The translations under genes and the position numbers were made by a program. From a virus, in the IMG/VR virus record IMGVR_UViG_3300030451_003374, positions 22,437-86,436 of that record: a stretch of 64,000 nt of DNA; one strand, written 5' to 3'. Of the stretch, positions 28,253-47,884 are shown piece after piece (within the stretch, counting starts at the first letter, position 1; every line of letters starts with the position of its first letter). The notes under the pieces were generated by a model. The model saw only the letters and a list, made by a program, of their open reading frames with translations. It made no database searches and was not told the DNA's origin.

Positions 28253-28837
28253 TCACTCACATGTCAATAGCCAACTTCTATATTTTTTGCGATCTATCTT
28301 CATGAATGGTAAGTACTTTCTGATCTTCATACCAACTGCTTTCCACACAGGGTCGTCTAGTTTCTTATCAAACACATCACAGAACTTGAACAGTCTTTCG
28401 TAGATACACATGTTCTCTACACTAAATCTACCAGCAAGATGTTCTTTTAGTAATGGTGGATGACCCTCTGAGGTGTCAAACAAATCGTCAATCTTATATG
28501 TCTCAAGTAATGTATTAGTCTGAGACTTGAAGTCATAGAACAAACTCTCTGATCTCCTCATCCAATCCTTATATACTACCTCTCCTGATCTTATTATGTT
28601 TCCTATCCACACACCCTCAGGGTTATCTGTTGCTACAAAGTTAGCAAGGAAGAAATTATGTATCTCATTGTCCTTATACTTCCTTGATGTTTTCTCAAAG
28701 AAATATCGATCCTTCCTCTTGTAGAATGATTCTATCTTTGCTTTCGATCTACCACCATACTTATGGTAGTCATACTTCTCTCTCGTAAAGTGATTCTTGA
28801 ATGCAAGATACTCTTTGTAAGTATCAAACGGTGTCAT
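28253..28837 (-). CDS. gp59: Loader of replicative helicase gp59
   Basis: A 194-residue homologue of T4 gp59 (217). Matches include YKEYLAFKNHF, KYDYHKYG, YKRKDRYFFEKTSRKYKDNE, FFLANFVATD.....WIG and the C-terminal W..VGMKIRKYLPFM. gp59 loads the gp41 helicase on gp32-coated forks. ATG 28837 is chosen because GAAGAG stands five bases upstream; the ATG at 28852 has no ribosome site. The gene overlaps the end of the radical SAM gene by 14 bases. Confidence 0.85.
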   Translation of the reverse strand: MTPFDTYKEYLAFKNHFTREKYDYHKYGGRSKAKIESFYKRKDRYFFEKTSRKYKDNEIHNFFLANFVATDNPEGVWIGNIIRSGEVVYKDWMRRSESLFYDFKSQTNTLLETYKIDDLFDTSEGHPPLLKEHLAGRFSVENMCIYERLFKFCDVFDKKLDDPVWKAVGMKIRKYLPFMKIDRKKYRSWLLTCE

Positions 28838-29900
28838 AGGTCTCTTCAGCATACATCGGTACGTTTTTCTTCATTGTAGCATCTAATTGCTTCGTTGCAG
28901 TAAACCAAACTGGATTACGTGGACACATCGTACAAATGTCATGGGGTTTCAACACCTCATCAAATGATTTCCTTAGGTTTTCTTCGGTATCATTTATGCT
29001 TGTGGGTTTATAGTCAAGGTACTTCTTCCATGCTGGATCATCTACCTGATCTGTAGCATGCAAAGACTCCCTGAGATATGATATCATAGGGCACTTCCAT
29101 AGATGTCCATTGTATAACTGACTGTTAGGGCAAGAGCAGTGCTTGAAACTCTCTTCAGGATCACCCTCCTCAAAAGGATAGTACTTTATACTATCATCAT
29201 TGAATTCATACTTGACAATGTCAAACCACTGTCTTGGTTTACCATCAAGTAATCTAAATGCTTCACTAAACTCTAGTAGATTCTCTGTGTCCACACCTCT
29301 GGACTTGAGATACCTCACAAACTTTGCTGCGTTTTCCCAATTGATAGATCCCTGTGGTGTATACCATGGTTTGTGGAAGGTAAGTCTAAACACTACACCT
29401 TTCAACATCTCATCAGCAATCCATTCTTGTTCCTGTATTAGTCTAGATCCATTGCTGAATAGTTTTATATTACATTTCTGTCCTGTTGCTTCTGCCACTT
29501 CTCTTGTGACTGTCACAACTTCTTTAGTCCTTGGTTCTAATAATGGTTCACCACCTATGATACTGATGTGACTCCACACATGTATCTTTGGTAGTATGTT
29601 CTTTATATCTTCCTTCAGTGCATCAATATCTACCCTACTGTTCACACCCAACAGACTACTGTTATGATTACATGCTCTGCATGCTAGGTTGCACCCATTG
29701 ATAACATGTATGCTGAGTAACCTAGTGGTAGGTCTTTCCTTCTCTAGTTCTGCGATCTCTTCTGGAGTGCACTGTCTGAAATTACTTATCCAAAAACCAC
29801 GTTGTTCTCTCACGTAGTCGACACTAACCGCTACCTCTCTGAGTCTTTCCTCAGGTAATTGGTTGTGGATCTTTCCGAATGTCCACTCCTTGATCTTCAT
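28824..29900 (-). CDS. Radical SAM protein A
   Basis: A 358-residue protein. Residues 70-77 (CNLACRAC) give the CxxxCxxC motif for the [4Fe-4S]/SAM cluster, followed by IIGGEPLLEP (the GGEP SAM-binding motif). Cysteines also cluster late: KHCSCPNSQLYNGHLWKCP near residue 258 and ICTMCPRN near 326, which could hold an auxiliary cluster as in SPASM/Twitch enzymes. It shares both segments with radical SAM protein B at 31836-32696, so the two are paralogues. The substrate is unknown. It lies between gp33 and gp59 with tight overlaps. Confidence 0.8.
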   Translation of the reverse strand: MKIKEWTFGKIHNQLPEERLREVAVSVDYVREQRGFWISNFRQCTPEEIAELEKERPTTRLLSIHVINGCNLACRACNHNSSLLGVNSRVDIDALKEDIKNILPKIHVWSHISIIGGEPLLEPRTKEVVTVTREVAEATGQKCNIKLFSNGSRLIQEQEWIADEMLKGVVFRLTFHKPWYTPQGSINWENAAKFVRYLKSRGVDTENLLEFSEAFRLLDGKPRQWFDIVKYEFNDDSIKYYPFEEGDPEESFKHCSCPNSQLYNGHLWKCPMISYLRESLHATDQVDDPAWKKYLDYKPTSINDTEENLRKSFDEVLKPHDICTMCPRNPVWFTATKQLDATMKKNVPMYAEETYDTV

Positions 29901-30166: not shown

Positions 30167-30815
30167 TGATTTTTTCTTCGACAAATTTTTGAATGTAAAG
30201 GACTAATTTTTTCATATACTTTATCTTATCATACTCCTCGTACACTGTCACCTCTCCGTTCTCACATGTCATAATAATAACAAGTTTCTTGACAGGTATT
30301 CCTGTACGTTCAAAGAACATACAAGCATACGCTGCTGCCTGTACAAAATAGTTCTCTATCCAATCCCTAGGTTTGGGTTTCTCTGCTGTCTTGAAATCAA
30401 TTATTGATAACTCTCCATTATATTCTGCGATGCAGTCGACTGTACCGGCAACACCTAACTCTTCACTAAAAAGACTTTTCTCAAGAGCGTATATATTATT
30501 TATATTTTTTAGGGTCTCCTTCGCTTGAAGGAACAACATCTTAGGACTAGGTTTATCAAACTCTACCTCCTTGTTGAGTAGATGATTCTCTATCAACTCA
30601 TGTGTAGCAGTACCTCTGGAGGTTGCACGTTTAGTAATTCTATTTGCTTCTGCTTCACCTATCCTCTTCCTCCAGTCAACAAAGATTTGTTTATTCCAGT
30701 GTGAGGTAACTGAAGTGATTGAGACCATGGGTCTACCATTGACAGTGTAATACCTAGCACCATCTATATTCTGCCTCTTTAGTTTAGGCAGTTCGCAGTC
30801 AACATGAGTGAACAT
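30141..30815 (-). CDS. RecB/MGME1-like PD-(D/E)XK exonuclease
   Basis: A 224-residue nuclease. Landmarks are RGTATHELIEN (residues 67-77), then ELGVAGTVDCIAEYNGEL and SIIDFKTAEKP, giving catalytic Asp127, Asp140 and Lys142 of the PD-(D/E)XK fold, followed by YFVQAAAYACM. This arrangement is that of RecB-C/Cas4/MGME1 nucleases. In a phage it likely processes DNA ends in recombination or host DNA breakdown. It is coupled to phoH by TAATG. Confidence 0.8.
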   Translation of the reverse strand: MFTHVDCELPKLKRQNIDGARYYTVNGRPMVSITSVTSHWNKQIFVDWRKRIGEAEANRITKRATSRGTATHELIENHLLNKEVEFDKPSPKMLFLQAKETLKNINNIYALEKSLFSEELGVAGTVDCIAEYNGELSIIDFKTAEKPKPRDWIENYFVQAAAYACMFFERTGIPVKKLVIIMTCENGEVTVYEEYDKIKYMKKLVLYIQKFVEEKINECQNKDA

Positions 30816-31567
30816 TACAAACCTAAGGTGTGTTTACTGGTGATATAACTCTTGACTAATCCAGACCTTACTATATCATCAACACCAAACTCAACCAAAG
30901 CAAACTCAGGCATCATAGTGATGATCTTTTGAAAGTCTAAGATACCATTCTTCTCATTGGTTCTAATGAGATCGGTTTGTGCTACGTCACCGCAGAACAT
31001 AATCTTAGTGTCTTCACCTACTCTTGTTATTATACTATCTAACTCATGAAAATTCAAGTTCTGTGACTCATCTACTATAACAATAGAAGCATCAAGTGTT
31101 GTTCCTCTGATGAAAGATGTAGACCAGAAGGTCACACTCTCCTGTGCTTTGAGATTACCCCACAACATTTCAAATTCATTGTCCGTTGCCAACTCAAACA
31201 TATACTTGACCATATTCTTGTATGGTATCTGGTATAGTGCTGACTTGTCCTCGTGATCACCAGGTAAGAAACCTATCTCTCTAGTTGACACAAGTGATCG
31301 TACCAAGACTACCTTATTGTATGGTGTCAAAGGATCTAGCACCTGTTTCAGTGCCATGTAGAGGGTGATGAATGTCTTACCTGTTCCTGCTGCACCGTAA
31401 AGGAATAGGTTCTTGCCCTCATTGTAGTGAGCAAATGCAGTAGTCTGATTAGGTGTGATAGGTTCGATAGGAACCATCATGTCAGAGTTATATGGTTTCT
31501 TCCTACGTAATTGCTTTGCTGTCATGCCAGCACCTACACTGACTGACATTTTCTTTTTGCGTGGCAT
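30815..31567 (-). CDS. phoH: PhoH-like P-loop ATPase
   Basis: A 250-residue PhoH protein. The Walker A motif GAAGTGKT is at residues 58-65 and Walker B is IVIVDESQNL, with the PhoH-typical VLVRS, EIGFLPG and GDVAQTDL motifs. PhoH is common in cyanophages; its role is unresolved (RNA processing or phosphate stress response). ATG 31567 is chosen because it overlaps the previous stop as TAATG; a 25-residue upstream extension would run inside that gene. Confidence 0.9.
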   Translation of the reverse strand: MPRKKKMSVSVGAGMTAKQLRRKKPYNSDMMVPIEPITPNQTTAFAHYNEGKNLFLYGAAGTGKTFITLYMALKQVLDPLTPYNKVVLVRSLVSTREIGFLPGDHEDKSALYQIPYKNMVKYMFELATDNEFEMLWGNLKAQESVTFWSTSFIRGTTLDASIVIVDESQNLNFHELDSIITRVGEDTKIMFCGDVAQTDLIRTNEKNGILDFQKIITMMPEFALVEFGVDDIVRSGLVKSYITSKHTLGL

Positions 31568-31818
31568 TAGAAGTGTACTGTCTTTTGTGGTTTTACTTTT
31601 GATCCTGGTACTTGTGCTACCTTTGATAGCACCTCGTTCCATCCACCATCTGTTCTACTGTAAGCATCTCCTGTGCCACTGACGGTACCTGCTGCACCCT
31701 GTGACCAATCTTTATCCCAATCAGGGTTGTCCTTTCTCCACTGATCATACTCTTTCATAGACATCATGAGTTCTTTAGTCTCACCTGTCTTCAAATTCTT
31801 TATTGGGTATGTTGGCAT
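31567..31818 (-). CDS. Small conserved phage protein ahead of PhoH
   Basis: An 83-residue protein starting MPTYPIKNLKTGETKELMMS. The MPTY....TGE start recalls FmdB-type small proteins, but the zinc-ribbon cysteines are absent. The middle is Asp/Trp-rich and the C-terminus is Lys-rich. It has a perfect late promoter TATAAATA upstream and is coupled to phoH by TAATG, so phoH may be transcribed late from here. The function is unknown. Confidence 0.6.
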   Translation of the reverse strand: MPTYPIKNLKTGETKELMMSMKEYDQWRKDNPDWDKDWSQGAAGTVSGTGDAYSRTDGGWNEVLSKVAQVPGSKVKPQKTVHF

Positions 31819-31835: not shown

Positions 31836-32696
31836 TTATTTATAGGTATTAATTACCTTCCTCTGTGTCTTCTCTTGTTGAGCAGCACTAAAGTGAAGAG
31901 GTTTTGCTGTACACATTCTGCATACATTATCAGGTAGTATAGATCCCTCACAAAACTTTGTCAACTCATCGTCAGCACAGTCAACAGAGACACCATCAAC
32001 ATAATATTCCTGCCACTCTGGATCATCACGTTGACCTGTTACGTCCAACATCTCCCTAAGAAATGCAGTGTTCGGACATTTCCACAACTTACCATTATAT
32101 AATTGTGAGTTAGGACATGAACAATACTTGAAACTCTTATCAGGTTTCTCATGGTTGTATGGATATACTTTATCTCCTCTCTTCTTTATACTATAGAACC
32201 ACCTGTCCTTATTAGTATGATGTTCTGTTGCTCTAATCTTCCACGTCTGATTGGGAGCAGGACCTATGAACAATTCATGATCTGTCTTAGCAACAAAGTC
32301 TCTTACTGTTTTTATTATCTTGGCACCACGTTCTGTAGTCTCTGGTAAATGAAAACTAAATCTCAGATATACTTTAGGGTGGTCAAGGTATTTGTATATC
32401 CAATCATTACTTTCTAACAGTTCACCATTAGTATAAAGATACACATCATTACTAGCATGCTCTAGACATGTAGTAAATATCTCCTCGCATCTAGGATTCA
32501 AGAGTGGTTCACCACCTATCACTGACACTCTATTGATATCTACTCTTGGTAAGATAGTCTTTATATCATACAGAAGTTTATCTGTATCTAATTTACTGCC
32601 TGGTGCAAAGTAATTACTAAAATGATTACAACCTTTACATGATAGGTTGCAACCAATGGCAGAACTAACGTCAAGTATGTTGAGTCTAGGTTTCAT
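31836..32696 (-). CDS. Radical SAM protein B
   Basis: A 286-residue radical SAM enzyme: CNLSCKGC at residues 16-23 (CxxxCxxC), VIGGEPLLNP, and later KYCSCPNSQLYNGKLWKCP and VCRMCTAKP. The last two match radical SAM protein A (HCSCPNSQLYNGHLWKCP), suggesting a conserved auxiliary cluster or substrate site. It is the last gene of the carbamoyltransferase block and overlaps the N-half gene by 11 bases. The product could be a tailoring enzyme for the same substrate as the carbamoyltransferase, but this is inference. Confidence 0.8.
   Translation of the reverse strand: MKPRLNILDVSSAIGCNLSCKGCNHFSNYFAPGSKLDTDKLLYDIKTILPRVDINRVSVIGGEPLLNPRCEEIFTTCLEHASNDVYLYTNGELLESNDWIYKYLDHPKVYLRFSFHLPETTERGAKIIKTVRDFVAKTDHELFIGPAPNQTWKIRATEHHTNKDRWFYSIKKRGDKVYPYNHEKPDKSFKYCSCPNSQLYNGKLWKCPNTAFLREMLDVTGQRDDPEWQEYYVDGVSVDCADDELTKFCEGSILPDNVCRMCTAKPLHFSAAQQEKTQRKVINTYK
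31837..31844 (-). promoter_or_regulatory. Late promoter TATAAATA
   Basis: An exact late consensus on the minus strand, 19-26 bases before the ATG at 31818 and overlapping the stop of the radical SAM gene. Confidence 0.65.
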
Positions 32697-33495
32697 TATA
32701 TGCTAGGTATGCTGCACCCATTGCAGTGCCACCATCGTGAGCAACAGGTTCAATATAGAAATTTATATGAGGGTACATCTTTTGTATCTTATAGTTAGCA
32801 ACACAGTTCAAGAAGCAACCACCTGACAAACATACATCTCCTGTTGTCATTTCTATTAGTTCTTTATATCTTCTCTCCCATCTTTTTTGTATGGTAGCAG
32901 CAGGGTCATGATTGTATGCACTCAGACCCATGACCTTCCCTGCATCTCTGTAGTCCCAATCATATGTCTTAGCAGTCTCTTCAAATAATCTACCAATACC
33001 TACGAACTCAGGTGAGAAGTATCTCTTGTGTGTCTCTACGAATGTGGGTGCTACGAAAATAGATTCTATCTCTAGTCCTTCGCTTGTCTTAGAACCATTA
33101 GAGTCTACAACCACACAAGATGCATCAGTAAACCCAGAGTTATAGAAAGCACATGCAGCATGAGTTAGATGATGCATAGATCTATAGTCATACAGTCTAG
33201 CGTTAGGATATTTCTTTTTTATATTTGATATGTCTTTTATATTATCTAATCTCTTATCACCTTGAGTCCAGTATGAGTCAGTCAAGGCTACGTGTTCAAT
33301 TCCTTCTGGTAGATATGGTAACAAGGAACTGACCTTATGATCCCACTTGTTCCTTGTTACTCTCTCCGACTCCAGATATAATTTTGGTTTACCATACTCC
33401 AATAAACATACCGACCCGTTGTTTGATAGGTTGAACCCTACAACCCATTTTTTTGCCGGAGTTTTTTTTCCAGTTTCTGGTAAACTAAAAGTCAT
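32686..33495 (-). CDS. Carbamoyltransferase, N-terminal half (copy B)
   Basis: A 269-residue protein equal to the N-terminal ASKHA-fold domain of NodU/TobZ carbamoyltransferases: VGFNLSNNGSVCLLEYGKP, MHHLTHAACAF (metal-binding His motif), VVVDSNGS, AGKVMGLSAYN, LSGGCFLNCVANY and HDGGTAMGAAYLAY. It lacks the C-terminal carbamoyl-phosphate-processing domain, which is encoded separately just upstream (33492-34091, ATGA overlap). Normal family members are a single chain near 550 residues. It lacks a roughly 80-residue internal stretch present in copy A. Confidence 0.85.
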   Translation of the reverse strand: MTFSLPETGKKTPAKKWVVGFNLSNNGSVCLLEYGKPKLYLESERVTRNKWDHKVSSLLPYLPEGIEHVALTDSYWTQGDKRLDNIKDISNIKKKYPNARLYDYRSMHHLTHAACAFYNSGFTDASCVVVDSNGSKTSEGLEIESIFVAPTFVETHKRYFSPEFVGIGRLFEETAKTYDWDYRDAGKVMGLSAYNHDPAATIQKRWERRYKELIEMTTGDVCLSGGCFLNCVANYKIQKMYPHINFYIEPVAHDGGTAMGAAYLAYNET

Positions 33496-34091
33496 TTTTG
33501 CCTGAGCTTATGCACCTCAGGGAAGTAAAGATAATCTATTGCACTATCCTCAAAGGTTTTGATTGCATCCTCAGGTGTCTCCACTAGAGGTTCTCCTGCC
33601 ATGTTGAATGATGTATTGAATAGCATAGGCACATCAGTAATCTGATAGAAAGCATCAATCAATTGATAGTAATTTAGATTGTCTTTCATGTCAACAGTTT
33701 GTACTCTACAAGTCTTGTCTATGTGTAGTACCGCAGGGATTTTATCATGTGTATGTGGTAAAGCATCCACAGCATACATCATGTACGGAGACTCTACAAG
33801 TCCTGCCATGTCAAACCACTTGTGTGCATGAGGTAGTAGTACACTGCCAGCGAATGGTCTGAAGGACTCTCTTCTTTTGATTAAATTAATCTTGTCTTTA
33901 CCTTCAGGGTCTCTTGGATCAAACAAGATAGATCTATTACCTAGTGCTCTAGGTCCTGCTTCTGACCGTCCTTGAAAGATGGCAACGCTATTTCTATCCG
34001 CCAAAAGCTCTGCTACTTGGTGGGAAGTAACGGTGTCACCTTCTATATCTTGAAGGTCGTAAGTAGGTCCTAAGTAAAGTGTTTCAATCAT
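33492..34091 (-). CDS. Carbamoyltransferase, C-terminal half
   Basis: A 199-residue protein equal to the C-terminal, YrdC-like domain of NodU/TobZ carbamoyltransferases: LYLGPTYDLQDIE, AIFQGRSEAGPRALGNRSIL, KRRESFRPFAGSVL, then VPMLFNTSFNMAGEPLVETP. This domain makes carbamoyl-adenylate from carbamoyl phosphate and ATP; the N domain moves the group to the acceptor. It starts with its own ATG and overlaps the 71-residue gene by 8 bases and the N-half B gene by 4. Since the order is C then N on the transcript, this is not a simple frameshift break of one gene. Confidence 0.85.
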   Translation of the reverse strand: MIETLYLGPTYDLQDIEGDTVTSHQVAELLADRNSVAIFQGRSEAGPRALGNRSILFDPRDPEGKDKINLIKRRESFRPFAGSVLLPHAHKWFDMAGLVESPYMMYAVDALPHTHDKIPAVLHIDKTCRVQTVDMKDNLNYYQLIDAFYQITDVPMLFNTSFNMAGEPLVETPEDAIKTFEDSAIDYLYFPEVHKLRQK

Positions 34092-34299
34092 CGTGGTCGT
34101 CCCAAGGGTCTGTTAGTTCTTTGTTATCAAAGAAGGATTTATACAGACCGTACCCTGAGAGGAGTACTAATATTACAAGGACTGAGATGCCAAAAGTAAT
34201 GTTTGGATTCAATGTCAAGTGAGGAATCAATGGTTCCTTACAGTTCAATTCCCATGTACCAGGTAAAAAATACACTGGTGGGCAAGATAAAAATGTCAT
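34084..34299 (-). CDS. Small single-span membrane protein
   Basis: A 71-residue protein: N-terminal MTFLSCPPVYFLPGTWELNC, one hydrophobic helix (ITFGISVLVILVLLSGYGLY), then an acidic tail ending DPWDDHDD. ATG 34299 overlaps the upstream stop as ATGA; a TTG three codons earlier is less likely. It lies between carbamoyltransferase genes; no function is known. Confidence 0.6.
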   Translation of the reverse strand: MTFLSCPPVYFLPGTWELNCKEPLIPHLTLNPNITFGISVLVILVLLSGYGLYKSFFDNKELTDPWDDHDD

Positions 34300-34796
34300 A
34301 CTATCCAATTTGGTTTTCTGGATGGGTCACGTAGATAATTAGATGCAACCCAAGGTTTGCTGCTAATGTAATTCTTGTAAGCAGTAAAAGTGTCAATGCT
34401 TGTGTCATGTTTATACTCATCAGGCATTGCACGGGTAAAGGACGTGGGTGGTGGGCAGTCGTCAAAGATAATATCAGCACACTCTATTGTGTACTGACAA
34501 CTATGAGTCTTGTTGTATCTATGCGTGTATTCTGCACACAATGCTAGACCATGTTCAATCAACCATCTGTAGTTAGTCTGTGCCCAGATAGTACATGGAT
34601 GATTACGGAAAGCACCCTTCTCTGTATTGTATGGTGAACCATCTACCTTAGGTAGTATGCCAAAACCATGACCCCACTTGTCTGACGCTACGATAGAGAG
34701 CATTTGACATGTCTCTAGTGGCATCTTGACTATGTGTTTGTCGGGTAAAACTTGAGCAGACTTGACAGGTGATGGATCAGTTACAAAAATGTTCAT
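34296..34796 (-). CDS. Conserved phage protein of unknown function
   Basis: A 166-residue protein starting MNIFVTDPSPVKSAQVLPDKHIVKMPLET. It has HPCTIWAQTNYRWL, ALCAEYTHRY and AMPDEYKHD motifs. It belongs to a phage and bacterial family that shares the D.H..KM..E start with pyrimidine-dimer glycosylase-type proteins. Catalytic function has not been shown to my knowledge. It is embedded in the carbamoyltransferase cluster with overlaps of 20 bases (upstream) and 4 bases (downstream). Confidence 0.65.
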   Translation of the reverse strand: MNIFVTDPSPVKSAQVLPDKHIVKMPLETCQMLSIVASDKWGHGFGILPKVDGSPYNTEKGAFRNHPCTIWAQTNYRWLIEHGLALCAEYTHRYNKTHSCQYTIECADIIFDDCPPPTSFTRAMPDEYKHDTSIDTFTAYKNYISSKPWVASNYLRDPSRKPNWIV

Positions 34797-35832
34797 AATA
34801 TGCTAGTAACGCTGAACCTATTGCTAGACCACCATCATAAGAAAGTGGGTCAGCATATAGATTTACATCTACATTCTTTATGATAGCGTAGTTTGCTACA
34901 CAATTCAAGAAGAAACCACCAGTTACACACACATTCTTATTATTTGTTAGGTTTATTGCCATCGCTACCATGTATATTGCATGTCTTTCTGCTGATTTTT
35001 GTAGATTATATGCTAGGTCTATTGGTTCTTGGTTACCATAGTATCCTGTGCTATCCTCCTTGGCATATAATTCTTTGCTACAAAAACTATGACCATACTC
35101 CTCTTTGAATAGATCAATACGTTTAGATCCATATCCTGTACGTTCAGATCCATATGCTGACAGTCCCATCGTCTTCCCTGCATCTAACTCATCAAACCCA
35201 CACTCTCTTGAGACCCTTCTGTATGCCTGTCCAACGCTAGTCCTATCACTATAGAGTATAAATCCATCAGTATTCTCACTGTGACAGTCCTCTCCCTCCC
35301 AGAACAGTAACTCTGTGTTCATTGATTCCCAATATGGTTTCTCTATTTTTCTACATTCTTCTTCACTCCAGAACGTAGAGTAATGTTTGAAGACAGGATT
35401 CTCATTGTCAAATATACTTTCTATCTCACAGAATCTACGTTCATTATGATCATGAACTGATCCTTTACCATCCATTACTAAGACAGCACAGTCATCAAAT
35501 GGTGATCCGTAACGTGCGTTAGCAGCATGACACTCATGATGTCTCTGTCTGTAATCTAGTATCGGTATGTTCTTATCTCTTATGACTTTACAAACTGCTT
35601 CCTTCTCCTTAGTTCTCTGTAAAAACTTCTTAGGATAATACTTTGTATAACAATCACATATAGCAACAGCATCTACACCATCAAGGTATTTCTCTACCAA
35701 AAATTTTGCACCACGATCCCTCTTGATTCTACTGAGTCTTTCTTCTTCAAGATAAAACTCAACCTCACCGTCATTTATGATAGCAAGAGAACCATTCTTA
35801 GATAAATTTATTCCTGCAATCCGTGTTCCCAT
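34777..35832 (-). CDS. Carbamoyltransferase, N-terminal half (copy A)
   Basis: A 351-residue protein, a second ASKHA-type N-terminal carbamoyltransferase domain: AGINLSKNGSLAIINDGEV, RQRHHECHAANARYG, AVLVMDGKGS, AGKTMGLSAYGSERTG, VCVTGGFFLNCVANY and SYDGGLAIGSALLAY. It is only moderately similar to copy B and longer by an insertion around residues 130-290. No second C-terminal half follows it, so it must share the C-half at 33492-34091 or act without one. It overlaps thyX by 25 bases. Confidence 0.85.
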   Translation of the reverse strand: MGTRIAGINLSKNGSLAIINDGEVEFYLEEERLSRIKRDRGAKFLVEKYLDGVDAVAICDCYTKYYPKKFLQRTKEKEAVCKVIRDKNIPILDYRQRHHECHAANARYGSPFDDCAVLVMDGKGSVHDHNERRFCEIESIFDNENPVFKHYSTFWSEEECRKIEKPYWESMNTELLFWEGEDCHSENTDGFILYSDRTSVGQAYRRVSRECGFDELDAGKTMGLSAYGSERTGYGSKRIDLFKEEYGHSFCSKELYAKEDSTGYYGNQEPIDLAYNLQKSAERHAIYMVAMAINLTNNKNVCVTGGFFLNCVANYAIIKNVDVNLYADPLSYDGGLAIGSALLAYYEHFCN

Positions 35833-36455
35833 CCTAGTGCCTCCGCAACGGCAGGGAATTGTCCTGCAAAAATACAGGCACAGTTCCTAGCGATCTCCAT
35901 GTGTTCCTTTTGAGTACCGTGTGCAGATCTTAAATTTATGTAGTGTATCCAAGACCGACATGATCCTGTCATGTAAATTTTTGTAGGTGTCGCTAGTGGT
36001 AAGACAAACCTTGCACACTCCTTCGCAACACCCTCCTCTAGCATCTGATGATACAATGCCTCTGCTGAACTGAACAAAGTTTTTATCTGCAATTCTAACT
36101 TCTGTTTTACAAACTCATCCAAGTCATCAGTAGAGTTCTGACGATTCTTTTCGTCCTGTCTTCTGAGATCTGGTACAGGTATCTCTCCTAGATGATCAGT
36201 GCTTGCATAGCGTTGACTGAACTCTTGGAATGTAAATGATCTATGTCTTAGTATCTGTGCAGCGATAGCACGAGTTGTCTCTATCTCTAGAGTCATGGTC
36301 GCTTGCTCAAATACTGACCAGTGATTGTGCTTGATACAATACTTCAGCAAACCAGCGTACTTCTCGTTCTCCTGATTGTTAGGGTTAGATACTCTGGCAA
36401 TGTATGCCATCATCTTCTCAGCATCAGGAGTGATGGTTACTAACTTGACGTTCAT
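35808..36455 (-). CDS. thyX: Flavin-dependent thymidylate synthase ThyX
   Basis: A 215-residue ThyX. The signature RHRSFTFQEFSQRY is at residues 70-83, with HWSVFEQATMTLEIE before and the C-terminal CRSWIHYINLR...QKEHMEIA. It makes dTMP from dUMP using FADH2 and methylene-THF. It is preceded by a 50-residue ORF (ATGA overlap) and overlaps the carbamoyltransferase N-half A gene by 25 bases, so expression is linked. Confidence 0.95.
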   Translation of the reverse strand: MNVKLVTITPDAEKMMAYIARVSNPNNQENEKYAGLLKYCIKHNHWSVFEQATMTLEIETTRAIAAQILRHRSFTFQEFSQRYASTDHLGEIPVPDLRRQDEKNRQNSTDDLDEFVKQKLELQIKTLFSSAEALYHQMLEEGVAKECARFVLPLATPTKIYMTGSCRSWIHYINLRSAHGTQKEHMEIARNCACIFAGQFPAVAEALGWEHGLQE

Positions 36456-37099: not shown

Positions 37100-38230
37100 T
37101 TAGTCAACCCTTTTAGTATCAACGGATACATTTTTTCTTTTGACACCACAGTAATCCGAACATATATGTGGTCTCTTATCCCATGACTCTACAAGTGTAC
37201 ACTGGAATAATGGGGTGTTCAATATCTCTTCAAGTGAATTATGTTTTAAAGATAAAGATTTCAATCCACCCTGATTCTCTATGAGTGGAATCATACTATC
37301 GTAGAACACCTTCTGCATATACTCAGCACCCACACCTTTATTAGGATTCTTTATGTCCCTGTAGATAGCAGGGGAATCTATATCACCATTGATATAGTAG
37401 TCAGGATAGAAGAAGCGTAGTCTACTCTGGTGGAAGCAGCAAGCATGAACAATACCACGACTGTCTATCCTAAGTTGACCTGGATTCTTTATACCATGAC
37501 CATACCTACAGTCAATCTCTGTGTCCTCTGCTGCGGGTGGCTGCTGGAACACATGACCATCAACACCCTCTAGTTTATGTACCACTCCCCTGTATTCATA
37601 TGTAAATGTACCATCTCCCTTACCACTAGCATCATATAGATCGTTTACATTAGTATGTCTGAAGTCTTTGAACCCCATCAGTCTACTAAGATTTCTACAT
37701 CGTTTGATTTGATGTTGGTTGTGTTTGAATACTAGCATCCTCCAGACAGCAGGACCTCCTGCCTTTATAAATGCTCTAGCACTGTCTATAACTTTGTTAT
37801 AATCTACACCTACTCTGTACTGTTGTAGAGTATCTGTCAAACCATCTATGGAAAAGATAAGAAAACTATCTCTGTGTGATGATGCCATGAGAGCACCCAG
37901 TCTACCCCAGAACTCTTGGTCTCGTGTACCACCATTGGTACTCATCTGGAAGACTATACTACTGTTAGCATTGAGAGTGTAAGAATATATGTCTAACAAA
38001 TCCTCATTCAATGAGGGTTCACCGAATGATCCTTGAAAATATATCAGTTCTGTCTTTCTAAGAGTCTCAATAGGAAACCATCTCTTCCAATCAGCGAGTG
38101 ATATGGAAGAGCGATTCATAGATGGGTCTGGTTTCAAGACCGCTACCTCATCATTGTATGAGGTCTTATGTCTAGCACATAAAGGACACTTGGAGTTGCA
38201 ATGATCGGTCAGATCAATTAGGAACTTCAC
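37100..38230 (-). CDS. Radical SAM protein C
   Basis: A 376-residue radical SAM protein with CNSKCPLC at residues 11-18 (CxxxCxxC) and a GSFGEPSLNEDL motif in place of GGEP. Further cysteines occur in the second half (IDCRYGHG, HACCFHQ, HICSDYCG), likely an auxiliary iron-sulphur site. It is not close to A and B. It starts with GTG at 38230, overlapping the upstream stop as GTGA. It may modify a peptide or nucleotide; nothing in context decides. Confidence 0.75.
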   Translation of the reverse strand: MKFLIDLTDHCNSKCPLCARHKTSYNDEVAVLKPDPSMNRSSISLADWKRWFPIETLRKTELIYFQGSFGEPSLNEDLLDIYSYTLNANSSIVFQMSTNGGTRDQEFWGRLGALMASSHRDSFLIFSIDGLTDTLQQYRVGVDYNKVIDSARAFIKAGGPAVWRMLVFKHNQHQIKRCRNLSRLMGFKDFRHTNVNDLYDASGKGDGTFTYEYRGVVHKLEGVDGHVFQQPPAAEDTEIDCRYGHGIKNPGQLRIDSRGIVHACCFHQSRLRFFYPDYYINGDIDSPAIYRDIKNPNKGVGAEYMQKVFYDSMIPLIENQGGLKSLSLKHNSLEEILNTPLFQCTLVESWDKRPHICSDYCGVKRKNVSVDTKRVD

Positions 38231-40918: not shown

Positions 40919-42001
40919 CTAACCGACTGAAGGTGCAACAAGTGCAACAGTTGAAGACTCAGCAGAAGCAAGGTCTAGTGGGAAGTTGTGTGCATTTCTT
41001 TCATGCATTACTTCCATACCTAGGTTTGCTCTGTTTAGAACATCTCCCCATGTAGGAACGATCTTTCCGTTAGCATCAACTACAGACTGGTTAAAGTTGA
41101 AACCGTTGAGGTTGAATGCCATTGTACAGATTCCCATAGAGGTCAACCATACACATACAACTGGGAATGTTGCTAGGAAGAAGTGTAAACTTCTTGAGTT
41201 ATTGAAAGAAGCATATTGGAATATGAGTCTTCCGAAGTAACCGTGTGCAGCAACGATGTTATATGTTTCCTCTTCTTGTCCAAACTTATAACCATAGTTC
41301 TGTGACTCAGTTTCTGTAGTCTCTCTGATAAGAGAAGAAGTAACGAGTGAACCATGCATAGCAGAGAAGAGTGACCCTCCAAACATACCTGCTACTCCTG
41401 CCATATGGAAAGGATGCATCAAGATGTTATGTTCTGCTTGGAATACGAACATGAAGTTGAATGTACCACTGATACCTAAAGGCATACCGTCTGAGAATGA
41501 ACCCTGACCGAATGGGTATACAAGGAACACAGCGAAAGCAGCAGATACAGGAGCTGAGTATGCTACGCAGATCCATGGTCTCATACCTAAACGATATGAT
41601 AGTTCCCACTGTCTTCCCATGTATGCAGAGATACCAATTAGGAAGTGGAAGATTACCAACTGATAAGGACCACCGTTATACAACCACTCATCTAGAGTAG
41701 CAGCTTCCCATATAGGGTAGAAGTGTAATCCAATAGCGTTGGATGATGGAACGACAGCACCAGAGATGATGTTGTTACCAAAGAGTAGAGATCCAGCAAC
41801 TGGTTCTCTGATTCCGTCGATGTCGACAGGAGGTGCAGCGATGAATGCTACGATGAAACAAGCAGCAGCAGTTAGTAAGCATGGGATCATTAGAACACCA
41901 AACCAACCAACGTACAAGCGATTGTCAGTGGAGGTTACCCACTCACAAAACTCGTCCCATCCAGATAGCAAACCACCACGCTTACGTGAAATAGTTGTCA
42001 T
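40919..42001 (-). CDS. psbA: Photosystem II D1 protein
   Basis: A 360-residue D1 protein, full length. Landmarks are [50 protein letters not shown] (contains the redox Tyr), [37 protein letters not shown] and [12 protein letters not shown]. The C-terminus ([14 protein letters not shown]...) has the normal cleavage site after Ala and a 16-residue tail. Phage D1 replaces the quickly damaged host protein to keep electron flow during infection. It has its own consensus promoter, a 5' hairpin and a terminator, so it is a stand-alone unit. No intron or break is present. Confidence 0.98.
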
Positions 42002-42112: not shown

Positions 42113-42141
42113 ATTATAACAAAATGTTACGAGGATGTCAA
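42113..42141 (-). promoter_or_regulatory. Consensus sigma70 promoter of psbA
   Basis: Minus-strand TTGACA (42136-42141), 17 bases, TATAAT (42113-42118), all exact. The TGA stop of the upstream DUF616 gene (42138-42140) lies inside the -35 box. The -10 again runs into TATAATAAATA, with a late-like AATAAATA. Confidence 0.85.
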
Positions 42142-43019
42142 CTCTGAATAGGTAGTTGAGGACAAAGAACATTCCTATCTACAAACTCATCAAAGTTGAA
42201 GCGAGCAATGATTGGATGCAGTCCAGTGATAGGACGGAGTGCGTTCAATAACTCTCTCTTCTGTCTCCATTGTTGCTTGTGTCCATTCTGTGGATGAAGT
42301 TTCCTTCTATACTTCTTACCCTGATACCCAAAGACTATACCTACCTCTCCTGCTAGGTGCTTATGTCTTTTAATATTATTCTCATCAATATATGCTTCCT
42401 TTTTTATCCATGCATTCTCTATGATCTGTAGTTCTGTCTTAGTCAACTGCCTTGCTGTGTCAAATGATATCTGATCTCTGTTAGTTCCTATGAGAGAATA
42501 CTTCCACCACAAATCACCGAAGGTATACATGTCTTGATCTAATACTCTCCATATAGATGCTAATACAGGACTACAATACTCCTTGAAGTTATATCCCACG
42601 TCCCTTATAGTTTTTGATATCTCTATCGCCTCATCAAAAGTACACATTGATGGTAAGAAACTTTCAAGTATTTCCTCATAGTAATTGAACTTCTCACAGT
42701 GTCTCATGATAGTAAACCTATGCTCCAGATACTTCTTACAGTTGTCTACAAACTTAGGTGTCATTACATAGCAACCATCTAACCATACAGTCTTAGTACC
42801 ATAAGGAAATACTTTATGAGGATTGATCTTAACATATGCTGACCTTCTCCTATGACATGGGTGATCACATGGTATCTCTCTGAACTCCCAAGGTCCTTTC
42901 TTCTTCACAGTATTGTCAGTGAACATAACATACTTGATATCAGGATCATAGTAATGCTCATCAGGTATCTCATCATACCCATTGGTTATGCAACTGTATA
43001 TTACTATCCTAGAATCCAT
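42138..43019 (-). CDS. DUF616 (TOD1/MUCI70-like) glycosyltransferase 1
   Basis: A 293-residue protein with IYSCITNGYDEIPDEHYYDP at the N-terminus, VMFTDN, RRRSAYVKINPHKVFPYGT, VWLDGCYVM, IMRH and TNRDQISF. This is the DUF616 pattern of putative glycosyltransferases found in bacteria and plants. VWLDGC is the probable metal- or nucleotide-sugar-binding acidic site. It is the last gene of the glycan operon and ends in the psbA promoter. It is a paralogue of the next two genes. Confidence 0.75.
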   Translation of the reverse strand: MDSRIVIYSCITNGYDEIPDEHYYDPDIKYVMFTDNTVKKKGPWEFREIPCDHPCHRRRSAYVKINPHKVFPYGTKTVWLDGCYVMTPKFVDNCKKYLEHRFTIMRHCEKFNYYEEILESFLPSMCTFDEAIEISKTIRDVGYNFKEYCSPVLASIWRVLDQDMYTFGDLWWKYSLIGTNRDQISFDTARQLTKTELQIIENAWIKKEAYIDENNIKRHKHLAGEVGIVFGYQGKKYRRKLHPQNGHKQQWRQKRELLNALRPITGLHPIIARFNFDEFVDRNVLCPQLPIQS

Positions 43020-43860
43020 TCACTATCACTAACTTAGGGTCATTCTTTTCCCAATAACCTGTTCTATCTCCAAACAACCAGTCTCCTGTCTCCTTCATAA
43101 TAGCAGCACGATATCTCATCCTCATGCTGAGTCCTGTAATCTTTGCTAGTTGCTCCACTGTATCAGTAGGATCAATTCTTTTACCACCATATCTACCACC
43201 TTTATTCTTCCACCATTTACCATCAACAGGGTTAGCATCAGACCACCAACCAACACAATGTCTACACTCATCCCAACCATACTCCACTCCTGATGTCTGT
43301 AGTGCGACAGATAAAGATACTTGATCTCTCTTACCACCTCTCATATACCACTTCCACCACACCATGTTAGGCATCCATGCTTCAGAGTTCCTCCACAATA
43401 CTGTACCTAATGGTGAGAAAAATTTAGAGAAGTCGAACTCAGTCTCTTGTTTTACTTCTCTTGTAAAGTTTATAATGTCAAATGGTTCCATGAATCCTCT
43501 ATGAATATACTCAGCACACTCCTCAAGATAGTAATACTTATGTGGATGCTGCATCAAGAAGAAGTTATGGTCATTCAATATATTCTCACTCAACTCAAAG
43601 AAATTTACAGAGGTATGTCTTGCAGATATAACAGTATGAAGTTTAGATGCATCAATATAAACACTTTTACCTTCTATAGGACACAATATTTTTGGATGAC
43701 GTGACACTCTGACAGGATCATCATGAGAGTATTGTATCTCTCTTAGTTCCCAACCTTCTTGCTCCTCTACAGTGCCATCATGGTAACATATAAAATGTTC
43801 ACCTGATTTATTAGGTGGTAGTTCATGGTATGCGTTGGTGATTGCTGTATAATACTTCAT
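43009..43860 (-). CDS. DUF616-like glycosyltransferase 2 (divergent)
   Basis: A 283-residue paralogue: YTAITNAYHELPPNKSGE, FICYHDGTVEEQEGWELREI, VYIDASK, QHPHKYYYLEECAEYI and GKRDQVSLSVA. The start and RDQ motif fit DUF616, but the acidic motif is VYIDAS rather than VW.D, and the C-terminal half is shorter. It may have altered donor or acceptor choice. It overlaps gene 1 by 11 bases and gene 3 by 4. Confidence 0.7.
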   Translation of the reverse strand: MKYYTAITNAYHELPPNKSGEHFICYHDGTVEEQEGWELREIQYSHDDPVRVSRHPKILCPIEGKSVYIDASKLHTVISARHTSVNFFELSENILNDHNFFLMQHPHKYYYLEECAEYIHRGFMEPFDIINFTREVKQETEFDFSKFFSPLGTVLWRNSEAWMPNMVWWKWYMRGGKRDQVSLSVALQTSGVEYGWDECRHCVGWWSDANPVDGKWWKNKGGRYGGKRIDPTDTVEQLAKITGLSMRMRYRAAIMKETGDWLFGDRTGYWEKNDPKLVIVNGF

Positions 43861-45437
43861 ATAATATTGAAATACTTCATGTAAAAATCATGGTGTTTAT
43901 ATCTAGCATGTATTCTATGGTTCAGTCCAGTAATCTTATATAATTTTACCATTAATTCTTGTAGTCTAAGGTATTGTTTCTTGTCACCATGTTGTGGATG
44001 TTTACCTCTCCTTCCTATCTTATTGAAGAATCCTAATTTGATACCAGATTGATTTCTATCACCATAGAAGAGTGGTTCTATTCCAGTGTCCTGTATGGCA
44101 GCATCAAATGGTATGTTGTCACGATTGTATTTTTTATTACCCCACATGTACCACCTCTCATTGAATGTTTTTATTTCTTCTGTCAATTTTCTCCACACTA
44201 TTGTGCATTGTGGACTGGAATAGTTCTTAAAATTATATCCATTATCATTCAATTCATTTATAAAATTCATGAGAGTTTCCTCTGAGAAGAATGCACATGT
44301 ATATCCTTCTATAATCTCATCAAGTAAAGAGAAATTACCTCCATGTTTTAGTGCAGAGAATGGAAATGATTTCATACTTCTCTCTATAAACAACTCAGTC
44401 AATACGAAACAACCATCTATCCATACTGTGTAAGAATTTTCCGGAAAGAACTCATGTGCATTTGCTTTGACATAGAATGCAAAGTCTCTTGGATCTTCTA
44501 TATCTAAATCTAACTCAACATATATCCATGGTTTTACTGTAGTATCAATAGTGCCATCATGGAAACAGACATACTTTACATTAGGATCGTAGTATGATTC
44601 CCTAGGGAATACATCATAGTTATCAGTAATACATGTGAATACTATTAGTTGTGTATCAATATCAGATCCAAATTCAAACGGTAATGAATCTGTTGTAGAT
44701 TTTATCATGATACTTGCTATATCTTTGAAGTTGAAAATCTCATTCAACTCTGTCTGTAAGTCTACAATAGATCTATTAGTTGGTTTGTCTATACAAAATG
44801 AATGATTGTATGGTTTGATTCTATTTGGTTTTGATAGATCCACCATGGGTGTAGGGTTTCTATCTGCCTTGACTACAAGATACTCTGCCATTGAACTAGA
44901 GACTTGATCTCTATTCACTCCACCCATATACCATTCTCTCCATACCTTACCCCATTCAATAACCTCTGGTGTAAGTCTCCTCCATATCACACAGTTTATA
45001 GTTTGATCGTAGTCTTTAGGATCATATCCTCTACTCTGCATGAGACGTGCCATGTCTATGATCTCATCTTTGGTAGAGAATCCATAAGCATGTAGTTTAT
45101 TAAACTCAGCAGTCAATGATCTCTTATCAGGATGTGTTGGTAACATAAAGTCACCTTCATATTCTTTAGAGAACTCTACAAGTTCTTGTGTGATATTATA
45201 TGCAGCGTCAACCCATACAACATACTCACCCTCATCAAAATATAAATGAGGACAATGTTTAGGATGATATGATCTTCTAACTGGACACTCTTCTTCTACA
45301 TCTATCTTGATATATTTCCATAGTGGTTTAGTAGTCTCTATAGTACCATCATGGAAACAAATATACTGACAATCTTTATCATAATATACGTCAGGAACGG
45401 TATCATAACCGTTCGTTATACACGTATAGAATATCAT
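43857..45437 (-). CDS. Two-domain DUF616 glycosyltransferase 3
   Basis: A 526-residue protein holding two complete DUF616 domains. Domain 1, residues 1-215: FYTCITNGYDTVPDVYYD, ICFHDGTIETTK, VVWVDAAYN, HPDK and GVNRDQVSS. Domain 2, residues 265-525: VFTCITDNYDVFPRESYYDP, VCFHDGTIDTT, YTVWIDGCF and KYNRDNIPF. A linker of about 50 residues separates them. The pair could add two sugars in sequence or act as one catalytic and one binding domain. With the two neighbours it makes four DUF616 domains in 3.3 kb. Confidence 0.8.
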   Translation of the reverse strand: MIFYTCITNGYDTVPDVYYDKDCQYICFHDGTIETTKPLWKYIKIDVEEECPVRRSYHPKHCPHLYFDEGEYVVWVDAAYNITQELVEFSKEYEGDFMLPTHPDKRSLTAEFNKLHAYGFSTKDEIIDMARLMQSRGYDPKDYDQTINCVIWRRLTPEVIEWGKVWREWYMGGVNRDQVSSSMAEYLVVKADRNPTPMVDLSKPNRIKPYNHSFCIDKPTNRSIVDLQTELNEIFNFKDIASIMIKSTTDSLPFEFGSDIDTQLIVFTCITDNYDVFPRESYYDPNVKYVCFHDGTIDTTVKPWIYVELDLDIEDPRDFAFYVKANAHEFFPENSYTVWIDGCFVLTELFIERSMKSFPFSALKHGGNFSLLDEIIEGYTCAFFSEETLMNFINELNDNGYNFKNYSSPQCTIVWRKLTEEIKTFNERWYMWGNKKYNRDNIPFDAAIQDTGIEPLFYGDRNQSGIKLGFFNKIGRRGKHPQHGDKKQYLRLQELMVKLYKITGLNHRIHARYKHHDFYMKYFNII

Positions 45438-46195
45438 TTTCGTGCTGCTTCACTCAGTGTCTTCTCTGTTACGTTACCAGGTTCTCTTATGAACCAACCT
45501 GTTGCAATATACTTTGACTTTTCACCTGTTAGAAATGCACCACGATGCATGTGAGTATATGCTGCTGGCCACAGTACTACTGTACCTTTCTTTGGTTGGA
45601 AGGATATCTCTTGATGATAGAAGTCTGTTGCTCCACCATTCTCATATGGAATATCATTTAGATATATCATCCATGTTAGAACTCTATCTCTATACAAGAA
45701 GTTACCATTCTCACAATGCCATACATGATAACCACCACCAGGATCAGTACGTTGTAACTTACATGTCCATGATGATACAGGGTCACTTGCATCTACAAGA
45801 CCTGAGTACTTCTTGACATACATTTCAAATGCCATACCTACAGACTGGTTGACTTGCATAGTCATAGTCTGATCACATATCTCTAGGTATAGTTGATGAT
45901 CCTTTCTACCCATTCCACCCTGTGGAAACTGAGTCTTACCATCATTGAAATGATCCAATGTAAATGTATCGTCACCCATCTTAGTCACATCATGTGTTGA
46001 TGGTATGTTCTTGAAATATTTTTTTGTGTACCAGAACTCAAAAAGATCTACGAGTGAGTCACAAAATTCTGGTTTGACAAAGTTCTCAAAGACACCTATG
46101 GCACCATAGTCTTTCATCTCTGTGAATACTGGTTGTGGTACCTTGATAATAGGATCGTACTCGTCACTCTCAAGTGGTGTAATAGATGTGTTCAT
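45434..46195 (-). CDS. 2OG-Fe(II) oxygenase, prolyl-hydroxylase type
   Basis: A 253-residue protein. The core GGYHVWHCENG, RVLTWMIYLNDI, GGATDFYHQE, KGTVVLWPAAYTHMHRG and KYIATGWF is that of phage P4H-like oxygenases. Ligands would be His160, Glu162 (Glu in place of Asp) and His217, with Lys228 binding 2-oxoglutarate. The substrate might be a sugar or a protein side chain. It overlaps flanking glycosyltransferase genes by 4 bases each. Confidence 0.8.
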   Translation of the reverse strand: MNTSITPLESDEYDPIIKVPQPVFTEMKDYGAIGVFENFVKPEFCDSLVDLFEFWYTKKYFKNIPSTHDVTKMGDDTFTLDHFNDGKTQFPQGGMGRKDHQLYLEICDQTMTMQVNQSVGMAFEMYVKKYSGLVDASDPVSSWTCKLQRTDPGGGYHVWHCENGNFLYRDRVLTWMIYLNDIPYENGGATDFYHQEISFQPKKGTVVLWPAAYTHMHRGAFLTGEKSKYIATGWFIREPGNVTEKTLSEAARK

Positions 46196-46992
46196 TGTTC
46201 TTTCAATTGATTTAGGTATACTGATGGCGGAACTCTACCAACGTACTCATCAAGTTCCATGATTTGATCAATGGTATGATCCACTGCTTGGTATTCCCAG
46301 AACTCCTTTAATGCATTATTGCTTCCTTTGTGAAAAATGTCAAGGTGTTCTTCATGTATATTAGAACCCAAGTCCATCCTGTAATTGAACAAGGGTGTGG
46401 CATAGGTCTTACCACTATCTAATATTAGGTCTTCGGAGACTGCTCTTGGTCTGATGTTCTGGTCGATCTTCCACTGCGTTCCTCTTTGGTGTAGACGGAT
46501 GCACTTAGTTGCATGATGACGAGTAATAAGGTAGCAAGCAGCAGAAAAGTCATTGATAAATCTGTGGTGAAGTTTCAAGGTTATCCCATTAGGATTTATA
46601 ATAGTAAGTTGCAAACAATCAAAGTTTATTGGCAGTCTCTTACGTACTTCTTTCCATGTGAACGTCCAACTAGATGCAGTAGATAAATCTACATCATCTT
46701 CCATGATGAAAACCTCATCTAAATCTGTCTCTTCTACAAAATATTTGAGGGCACTCAAGTGTGACATGACACAAGCACACTCACCTGTATTCATCTGATC
46801 AGGAACTGTTCCTTTTAGGTGCTCTTCAAACTCCTCACCATCTATACCTGAGATACGATGATGATCTTTTATTCCCCAATAGGATAGATGATCTTCCATA
46901 TACTTCCTTCTCTCTGTGCAGCGATCAAGATTGATCCACAACACATTAGGAAAACCATCTAGTTTTTTTATCGCTTTATTTTTGTCGGGCAT
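46192..46992 (-). CDS. Glycosyltransferase family 25
   Basis: A 266-residue GT25 (LPS galactosyltransferase-like) protein: VLWINLDRCTERRKYMEDHL, HHRISGIDG, GECACVMSHLSAL and FIMEDDVDLS, with the EDD metal motif at residues 98-100. The C-terminal half (AACYLITRHHATKCI) follows the family. It transfers a hexose to a polysaccharide or collagen-like acceptor in known relatives. It overlaps its neighbours by 4 and 17 bases. Confidence 0.8.
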   Translation of the reverse strand: MPDKNKAIKKLDGFPNVLWINLDRCTERRKYMEDHLSYWGIKDHHRISGIDGEEFEEHLKGTVPDQMNTGECACVMSHLSALKYFVEETDLDEVFIMEDDVDLSTASSWTFTWKEVRKRLPINFDCLQLTIINPNGITLKLHHRFINDFSAACYLITRHHATKCIRLHQRGTQWKIDQNIRPRAVSEDLILDSGKTYATPLFNYRMDLGSNIHEEHLDIFHKGSNNALKEFWEYQAVDHTIDQIMELDEYVGRVPPSVYLNQLKEQ

Positions 46993-47884
46993 TTAAGTAC
47001 TCAGGGTTAGCATAATATTCTTCAAGTTGTTTGCGAGTCATCTTGCTCAACTTCTGCCACAGTTCCCTGTTACTTTCTATGTGTGGGTTATTGAACCATG
47101 AATTAGGTGTCCTACCATGCTCCATGTGGAACACGTGATCATTCAATCTCAATACCTTAGAACAAGTATTGAATCTATGATAGCGTTCGTCATCTTCATA
47201 ACCATATGCTACAAACCCTTCGTTCTCTGCACCTAGTCTACGGTATTCTTTTGTGTCAAAGAATTGACAGAAACCAAACTTGGCATCATATAAGTTTGCT
47301 TTTCCTTGGAACGCTCCGAAATTGAAATTAGAATTAATGAAACGAGTAACATCTTCATCCTTGATAAACAACTGGTATTGGAACTCACCTATTCCATAAG
47401 GGTATACACATTTTATATCTTCACCATTGTAACCTTTGAGTATAGTATTCTGTGCGAGTATGTAACTGTTTAGTGGGAGGATTATATCTGCGTCGTAGTT
47501 GCATACAACTGGTGTCTCTACCAACTCCAACATATCATTGAGTAGTTTGGTGCGATGAAATATTACATCATCTGCCTCCTCAAATATGTGATGTATATTA
47601 TGCATCTTGATAGGAGGTACTACCTCATCAAGCATAGGAACAACTTGCTTTAGGAATACAGATTCCTTATCATGTTCTTTTACTATTATTTGAGTGTCAA
47701 AATTCTTTAGAAGATATACCAATGTGGTAGTTATATTTCTAATTCTATCTGCTGTCTCACACCTAAGAGGTATGATAAATGTAGTGCTTGTTAGATCCCA
47801 CGAATTTATAGGTTGAATTTGTAGGTCTTCGTACATACCAAGATCAGGAATCTCTACTCCCTCTTGTACGATTTTATCTGCCAT
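46976..47884 (-). CDS. Glycosyltransferase, GT2-like with GT7C-type end
   Basis: A 302-residue protein: STTFIIPLRCETADRIRNIT, CNYDADIILP (DxD motif), then GFVAYGYEDDERYHRF, the galactosyltransferase C-terminal motif, and FHMEHGR. These give a GT-A fold with the DAD metal site. The donor is probably UDP-hexose or HexNAc. It ends with an overlap into the GT25 gene. Confidence 0.8.
   Translation of the reverse strand: MADKIVQEGVEIPDLGMYEDLQIQPINSWDLTSTTFIIPLRCETADRIRNITTTLVYLLKNFDTQIIVKEHDKESVFLKQVVPMLDEVVPPIKMHNIHHIFEEADDVIFHRTKLLNDMLELVETPVVCNYDADIILPLNSYILAQNTILKGYNGEDIKCVYPYGIGEFQYQLFIKDEDVTRFINSNFNFGAFQGKANLYDAKFGFCQFFDTKEYRRLGAENEGFVAYGYEDDERYHRFNTCSKVLRLNDHVFHMEHGRTPNSWFNNPHIESNRELWQKLSKMTRKQLEEYYANPEYLNARQK

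Follow-up and report, generated by a model that had tools for sequence, protein, structure and literature searches.

In passages of PMC9633730 and PMC9654439, class III carbamoyltransferases appear as one-chain enzymes whose labile intermediate travels between active sites within the protein. Can this hand-over also take place between separate chains, and can one donor be shared by two acceptors? The question is raised by a locus in the viral record IMGVR_UViG_3300030451_003374, of which positions 22,437 to 86,436 (64,000 nucleotides, hereafter the window) were analysed. Here the two domains of such an enzyme are spread over three genes, encoding two N-terminal acceptor halves, N-A and N-B, and a single C-terminal donor half, C. 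On the evidence given below, the trio is probably a class III carbamoyltransferase in subunit form belonging to T4-like cyanophages, in which C would act as the donor feeding the acceptor subunits N-B and N-A.

Identification of the three genes

The genes of the trio are the following:

34777..35832, minus strand: N-A, a stand-alone Kae1-like acceptor half of 351 residues (PF02543)
33492..34091, minus strand: C, a stand-alone YrdC-like half (carbamoyl-adenylate forming) of 199 residues, beginning with the linker motif LYLGP (PF16861)
32686..33495, minus strand: N-B, a second, shorter stand-alone Kae1-like half of 269 residues (PF02543)

A preliminary description of this DNA, made from its letters alone, had pointed to two N-halves and one C-half, and all three open reading frames were confirmed by Pfam matches above the curated cut-offs (E-values of 7.5e-21 for N-A, 3.5e-15 for N-B and 4.9e-61 for C). 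Each protein also matched its own part of the profile PHROG 1601, 'Nol-like carbamoyltransferase'. A chance or mis-called frame was ruled out, all three being conserved open reading frames with such matches. On the contig of 132,946 bases (classed as linear, possibly incomplete) the trio accounted for the only two PF02543 matches and the only PF16861 match. Being distributed over three frames, it departs from the single-chain organisation of class III carbamoyltransferases. The contig carries psbA (40919-42001) and T4-like proteins (gp32, baseplate proteins and DNA polymerase), because of which it was read as a T4-like cyanophage.

Models of both N-halves made with AlphaFold2 resembled TobZ. 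The N-B model (mean predicted local distance difference test, pLDDT, 91.0) had TobZ 3vf4 as its best Foldseek match (E 1.2e-12), and its VIA-align superposition on TobZ 3vf2 covered 236 residues with Z 25.0 and a root mean square deviation of 2.3 Å; for the N-A model (mean pLDDT 84.8) the best match was TobZ 3ves (E 7.4e-15). Z scores of N-B were 22.6-25.0 with TobZ and GdmN, and about 16-20 with TsaD and Kae1. In a phylogenetic tree N-A and N-B were sister clades, each supported at 100/99 and jointly at 99/96, and the fused outgroup rows fell outside them, a placement also obtained in a smaller tree with fewer rows.

Distribution of the trio and use of C

IMG/VR was searched with N-A, C and N-B as queries and then with two profile queries, of which one contributed its 80 best matches out of 243 and the other its 80 best out of 582, and the loci were sorted by a gene-order script; L- and G-numbers used below are labels of loci and records in this analysis. 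Contigs duplicating an identical C (or N) gene were dropped, which left 115 distinct loci; neither the window nor the loci with fused genes only (L028-L087) are part of this count. The preliminary description had suggested a search for the same trio, and this recovered the same thyX...phoH operon from many marine viral contigs; placement between thyX and phoH held for all loci whose contig was long enough to show both.

The arrangement of the window (S4: N-A, DenV/PsbN, C, N-B; the small genes are listed further below) was found in 25 of the 115 distinct loci, and eight others carried DenV only between N-A and C (S4d). N-A stood directly before C, with N-B following, in 24 loci (S3), and in eight N-A and C were fused in one frame of 512-530 residues followed by a separate N-B (F). 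N-A was missing from 18 loci with the order thyX, C, N-B (S2) and from three with the order thyX, DenV/PsbN, C, N-B (S2d). The remaining 29 loci were partial. Fused, split, split-with-insert and N-A-less forms in one locus make the question of a shared donor testable.

One lineage of C thus arranged occurs both joined to N-A and alone beside N-B. In the F loci C is fused to N-A while N-B stands alone; in the S2 and S2d loci together (21 of 115) N-B is the only N-half beside C. Identity to the C part of the fused L246 protein was 84.3% for the stand-alone C of the S2 locus L226 and 89.9% for that of the S2 locus L240, and the same C has therefore been put to both uses recently. An N-A query against N-A-less contigs found no N-A in the nine of nine checked, one of them 122,669 bases long; it picked up N-B and, in one contig, a distant fused enzyme. 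On the N-B tree the presence of N-A changed at least seven times (34 rows with and 13 without N-A; gain and loss not distinguished), and wherever enough sequence was available to check, N-A was accompanied by N-B. A single PF16861 match was present in each of 18 trio records. This double use of one C lineage, as judged from gene content and sequence, is sound though indirect evidence for a donor shared by two acceptors, and to this extent the earlier proposal of one C for two N-halves gains real support.

Under this reading C would make carbamoyl-adenylate from carbamoyl phosphate and ATP, as its conserved YrdC motifs and family membership suggest, and the gene orders suggest that it would hand this intermediate to either N-B or N-A. 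The subunits would bind one another, and each N-half would transfer the carbamoyl group to acceptors of its own, different from those of the other. N-B would be the constant partner of C, and an extra, diverged copy of the acceptor domain, whereas N-A would be a former fused partner that is missing from several lineages.

Active-site residues of the three proteins

C retains the YrdC catalytic motif KxR...SxN, given for TsaC in PMC9654439: K72, R74, S161 and N163 were invariant in an alignment of 13 sequences, and the motif blocks were kept in all 32 full-length rows of an alignment of 33 relatives, the 33rd row being a contig-end fragment. The iron ligands reported for GdmN are H133, H137, D156 and D333 (PMC9633730). 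Mapping by an N-A sequence alignment and the family alignment placed the corresponding residues in invariant columns of both N-halves, at H98, H102, D121 and D333 in N-A and at H108, H112, D131 and D254 in N-B. The metal-ligand motifs were present in nearly all copies among relatives, the misses being truncated or differently spelled rows.

A different picture was obtained for the general base. H27 of GdmN deprotonates the acceptor hydroxyl, and the H27N variant was wholly inactive (PMC9633730). The equivalent residue of TobZ is H14, and the title of PDB entry 3vex names the H14N variant with carbamoyl-adenylate. This His is absent from both N-halves of the window. The phmmer match of N-B to 3vex pairs Asn25 with TobZ position 14, and Lys12 of N-A was placed by a one-residue extension of the alignment together with the column common to N-B. 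The preliminary description had all halves keeping their motifs, which holds for the metal ligands and for C and fails at the general base. Of 77 readable N-A relatives, 60 had Lys at this position and 17 had His, with five more truncated, and on the N-A part of the tree His and Lys interchanged at least three times. N-B relatives had Asn in 92, Glu in eight and His in none of 100 (five read by eye). F-type fused proteins carry Lys, and the other fused phage proteins carried His in 70 of 70 with a readable N-terminus (read by eye, near-duplicates included; two more truncated). These genes look functional although a base regarded as essential is gone, which raises the question of the chemistry or acceptor used by the subunits; its loss from both N-halves stands out as new and more puzzling.

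These residues bear on an arrangement resembling TsaD-TsaB, in which N-A and N-B would form an obligate heterodimer with N-B as a non-catalytic paralogue and C as a separate donor like TsaC. Such pairs of Kae1-fold paralogues exist (TsaD-TsaB, PMC9654439), N-B is the shorter protein and has Asn at the base position, and N-A always occurs in the company of N-B where this could be checked. Both N-halves, on the other hand, keep the H, H, D, D set, whereas the C-lobe of TsaB is said in PMC9654439 not to support nucleotide or metal binding, and the structure of N-B is nearer to TobZ and GdmN than to TsaD and Kae1. The paralogues are also not always together: since C and N-B persist in the 21 loci from which N-A is missing, N-B does not seem to need N-A and an obligate heterodimer becomes less likely. 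As the only N-half of the S2 phages, N-B is also difficult to picture as a pure scaffold. We consider an arrangement of this type unlikely.

Several points weigh against a donor shared by two active acceptor subunits. Because both N-halves lack the His and GdmN H27N is inactive, either of them could be inactive on hydroxyl acceptors. The constant pairing of C with N-B speaks for the reading, N-B coming after C in all 150 of the 150 loci (contigs not de-duplicated) that extend at least 900 nucleotides beyond C, but the figure is biased because queries with N-B or C retrieved many of these loci. Three of 24 records (one F and two S3) and the S2 record G019 of 122,669 bases contain a second, distant PF16861 match, and most contigs are fragments on which a further C may have been missed. 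The frames of these second matches span about 460-490 residues, and three of the four have a TAA inside the family match (G019 at 71-72.5 kb, G036 at 6.5-7.9 kb and G044 at 45-47 kb).

The replaced His likewise suggests that C might work with one N-half only, the other being either a non-functional remnant or a stand-alone protein that binds carbamoyl-adenylate or a nucleotide in some different role. It is replaced in both N-halves, and the His-to-Asn change of N-B is the one that inactivates GdmN (PMC9633730) and that is present in the TobZ H14N protein crystallised with carbamoyl-adenylate. Against a single working N-half stand the purifying selection on all three genes (see below), the metal-ligand motifs in nearly all copies, and the persistence of C beside N-B alone as well as fused to N-A; its probability is in our judgement low.

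Relationship between N-A and C

In five relatives checked (L100, L101, L104, L106 and L107), the N-A stop codon lies 26 nucleotides inside C and out of frame with it, such that the N-A tail (...TLPRT* or ...IIPRT*) and the C start (MKTLYLGP) are the same DNA read in two frames. Residues like LYLGP form the linker between the N and C domains of fused phage enzymes; the overlap of the N-A stop with the C start at this motif therefore places the N-A/C junction where fused enzymes have their linker. It is exactly in this junction that the window carries its DenV and PsbN genes. Judged by their sequences, N-A and C look like two halves of a formerly fused gene, N-B being the only true extra. The preliminary description had stated that the trio is not a broken single gene, a statement at odds with the linker overlap in five relatives and with the fused N-A and C of eight distinct loci.

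F-type N-A branched next to all split N-A (support 89/91, not strong), and the Met of MKTLYLGP was kept in all eight distinct F proteins while the residue preceding it varied (L229-L232, L234-L238, L242, L243 and L246). From such a Met, free C might be translated within the fused gene; alternatively, it may be left over from a re-fusion. Given the support of only 89/91 and the Met common to all eight F proteins, either fission of a fused ancestor or re-fusion may account for the present forms.

A gene split at its linker might also be a dying one, with the trio as fragments of a decaying fused gene, and N-A and C do resemble such halves. The split forms are nevertheless open frames conserved across 60-100% amino-acid identity, and the motifs of C are kept in all 32 full-length relatives aligned. 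Ratios of non-synonymous to synonymous substitution rates (dN/dS; Nei-Gojobori method, window against six relatives and within two pairs of relatives) lay in the range 0.06-0.24 in all three genes wherever dS had a finite value; several dS values exceeded 1 and one was infinite (N-B of L100), so that ratios over long distances are rough. All three genes are under purifying selection. The preliminary description had taken fused versions in close relatives as a sign of decay; such versions do exist, and it is decay itself that fails on these ratios, leaving it hardly credible as an explanation. Between the window and L017, dS was 0.145 for N-A, 0.233 for N-B and 1.27 for C, as if C had been swapped separately by recombination.

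Neighbouring genes

The trio shares its locus with the following genes:

35808..36455, minus strand: thyX, upstream of N-A (PF02511)
34296..34796, minus strand: DenV-like gene (pyrimidine dimer DNA glycosylase), between N-A and C (PF03013)
34084..34308, minus strand: gene for 74 residues with a C-terminal PsbN domain, between DenV and C (PF02468, PHROG 8051)
31836..32696, minus strand: radical SAM gene rSAM2, after N-B (profile match)
30815..31642, minus strand: phoH-like gene, downstream anchor of the thyX...phoH locus (match to the annotated PhoH of S-RIM44 and Sf-FP1)

Transcript order is thyX, N-A, DenV-like, PsbN-domain, C, N-B, radical SAM, a small regulator-like gene and phoH. The sequence of N-A, two small genes, C and N-B is as the preliminary description gave it, and it recurs in many IMG/VR contigs. 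Every adjoining pair in the run from thyX to rSAM2 overlaps, by 4-25 nucleotides (thyX/N-A 25, PsbN gene/C 8, C/N-B 4 and N-B/rSAM2 11). The N-A/C junction of relatives holds DenV alone in some cases and neither DenV nor PsbN in others (the S3 loci having no DenV).

Three radical SAM genes surround the locus (28824-29900, 31836-32696 and 37100-38230), none of which scored over the NCBIfam cut-off; rSAM1 and rSAM2 have, by eye, an alike Cys-rich C-terminal stretch. rSAM2 follows N-B in many relatives and is missing there in several, including L100, L104, L108 and L145, which rules out rSAM2 as a fixed partner of the trio.

Candidate acceptors

Cyanophage 'carbamoyltransferases' are common in databases, and PMC9146016 assigns them to pyrimidine synthesis, a role that the domains identified here do not support. 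The one phage precedent for a class III acceptor is 5-hydroxymethylcytosine in DNA (PMC8670742), and the trio might be a split version of that phage enzyme (eLife 2021). The enzyme carbamoylates this base in vitro and co-occurs with thymidylate-synthase-family genes (PMC8670742); thyX adjoins the trio. The partner hydroxymethylase in that study, however, belongs to the ThyA family (PF00303) and ThyX to another (PF02511), and the enzyme itself carries the His (GHNAS) that both N-halves lack (PMC8670742). No PF00303 match was found in eight records, among them the contig of the window, which may be incomplete, and the missing ThyA-type hydroxymethylase speaks against 5-hydroxymethylcytosine DNA as the acceptor. 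We regard this acceptor as very improbable.

A sugar made by the phage is a possible acceptor. PF16363 was found in two of seven relatives searched (two trio records), and not in the third trio fragment or in the S2 and split-pair records; because of this inconsistent association the link is weak. The window itself has a large stretch of glycan and sugar genes after psbA (42138-58884), with glycosyltransferases of families 25, 11, 10 and 17, GDP-mannose-dehydratase-like genes, a DegT aminotransferase and a 2-oxoglutarate oxygenase; the sugar genes considered for an acceptor lie at about 46-59 kb.

Since N-B is without the general-base His, a hydroxyl acceptor would be less expected for it. TsaD acts on an amine and HypF on a thiol, and neither is known to have this His. 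It is conceivable, although we hold it to be doubtful, that N-B (no His in 100) carbamoylates a base-independent acceptor such as an amine or a thiol, in the manner of TsaD and HypF, in place of a hydroxyl on a sugar or hydroxymethyl group, and N-A (Lys or His) a second one, two different modifications thus drawing on one activated pool and N-A being gained or lost at will.

Comparison with known systems

Searches of open-licence PubMed Central papers turned up, among the papers listed, no account of a split class III carbamoyltransferase or of the trio. TobZ, GdmN, VtdB, NovN and NodU share with the trio the two domain families, the fold of both N-halves, and the metal-ligand and YrdC residues. 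They differ from it in being one chain (Kae1-like N domain, YrdC-like C domain), as against three chains with two acceptors per donor; TobZ and GdmN have the general-base His where the trio has Lys or Asn, and the trio N-B is shorter. A scan of genome contigs for split forms in bacteria gave a fused N and C frame in 79 of the 80 best matches out of 582. L318, from a Methylophilaceae metagenome-assembled genome, was rejected as a natural bacterial split, its gene being broken over several frames.

In named phages the nearest family relatives are the fused cyanophage 'Nol-like carbamoyltransferases' (S-SSM5, P-RSM4, S-SSM7 and others; PHROG 1601), 52-62% identical in the C half, which differ from the trio in being one chain with the His kept. 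S-SSM7, with a fused enzyme and a separate N-half, is the nearest named parallel to two N-halves and one C, but has three C matches in all. Tandem pairs of fused carbamoyltransferase genes are present on many cyanophage contigs (L032, L035, L036, L039, L047, L058, L061 and others); where the N tree includes both members of a pair, they belong to separate clades (for example in L061, L032 and L039). The 63-kDa 5-hydroxymethylcytosine carbamoyltransferase found by MetaGPA (PMC8670742) is likewise a phage member of the family, differing in its single chain with His and its ThyA-type partner.

Separate genes in the same locus and in the order C then N, as in the trio, are found in S-RIM44 and Sf-FP1 (thyX, C, N, g385, phoH). 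These phages differ in having only one N-half, with the His kept and the linker on that half and not on C, and because of the position of the linker their split is probably independent of that of the trio. The nearest named record is Marine virus AG-345-D19 (MH319720.1; thyX, C, N-B, radical SAM, g385, phoH), identical at 48% in N-B and 58% in C, with Asn at the base position like the N-B of the trio and no N-A beside C. No N-A relative above 35% identity was found in named phages, the best, at 34.6%, being the N-half of AG-345-D19.

The threonylcarbamoyladenosine (t6A) system, TsaC/TsaD-TsaB(-TsaE), resembles the trio in combining a separate YrdC-like donor with two paralogous Kae1-fold proteins. 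In the trio, however, both paralogues keep the metal ligands, N-A has been dispensable in evolution, no TsaE was seen in the operon, and the sequences are closer to the TobZ family. If the reading of one C feeding N-B and N-A is right, the trio would be a natural split with two acceptors per donor and would show, as in the t6A system, that the intermediate can be handed from chain to chain and the hand-over shared.

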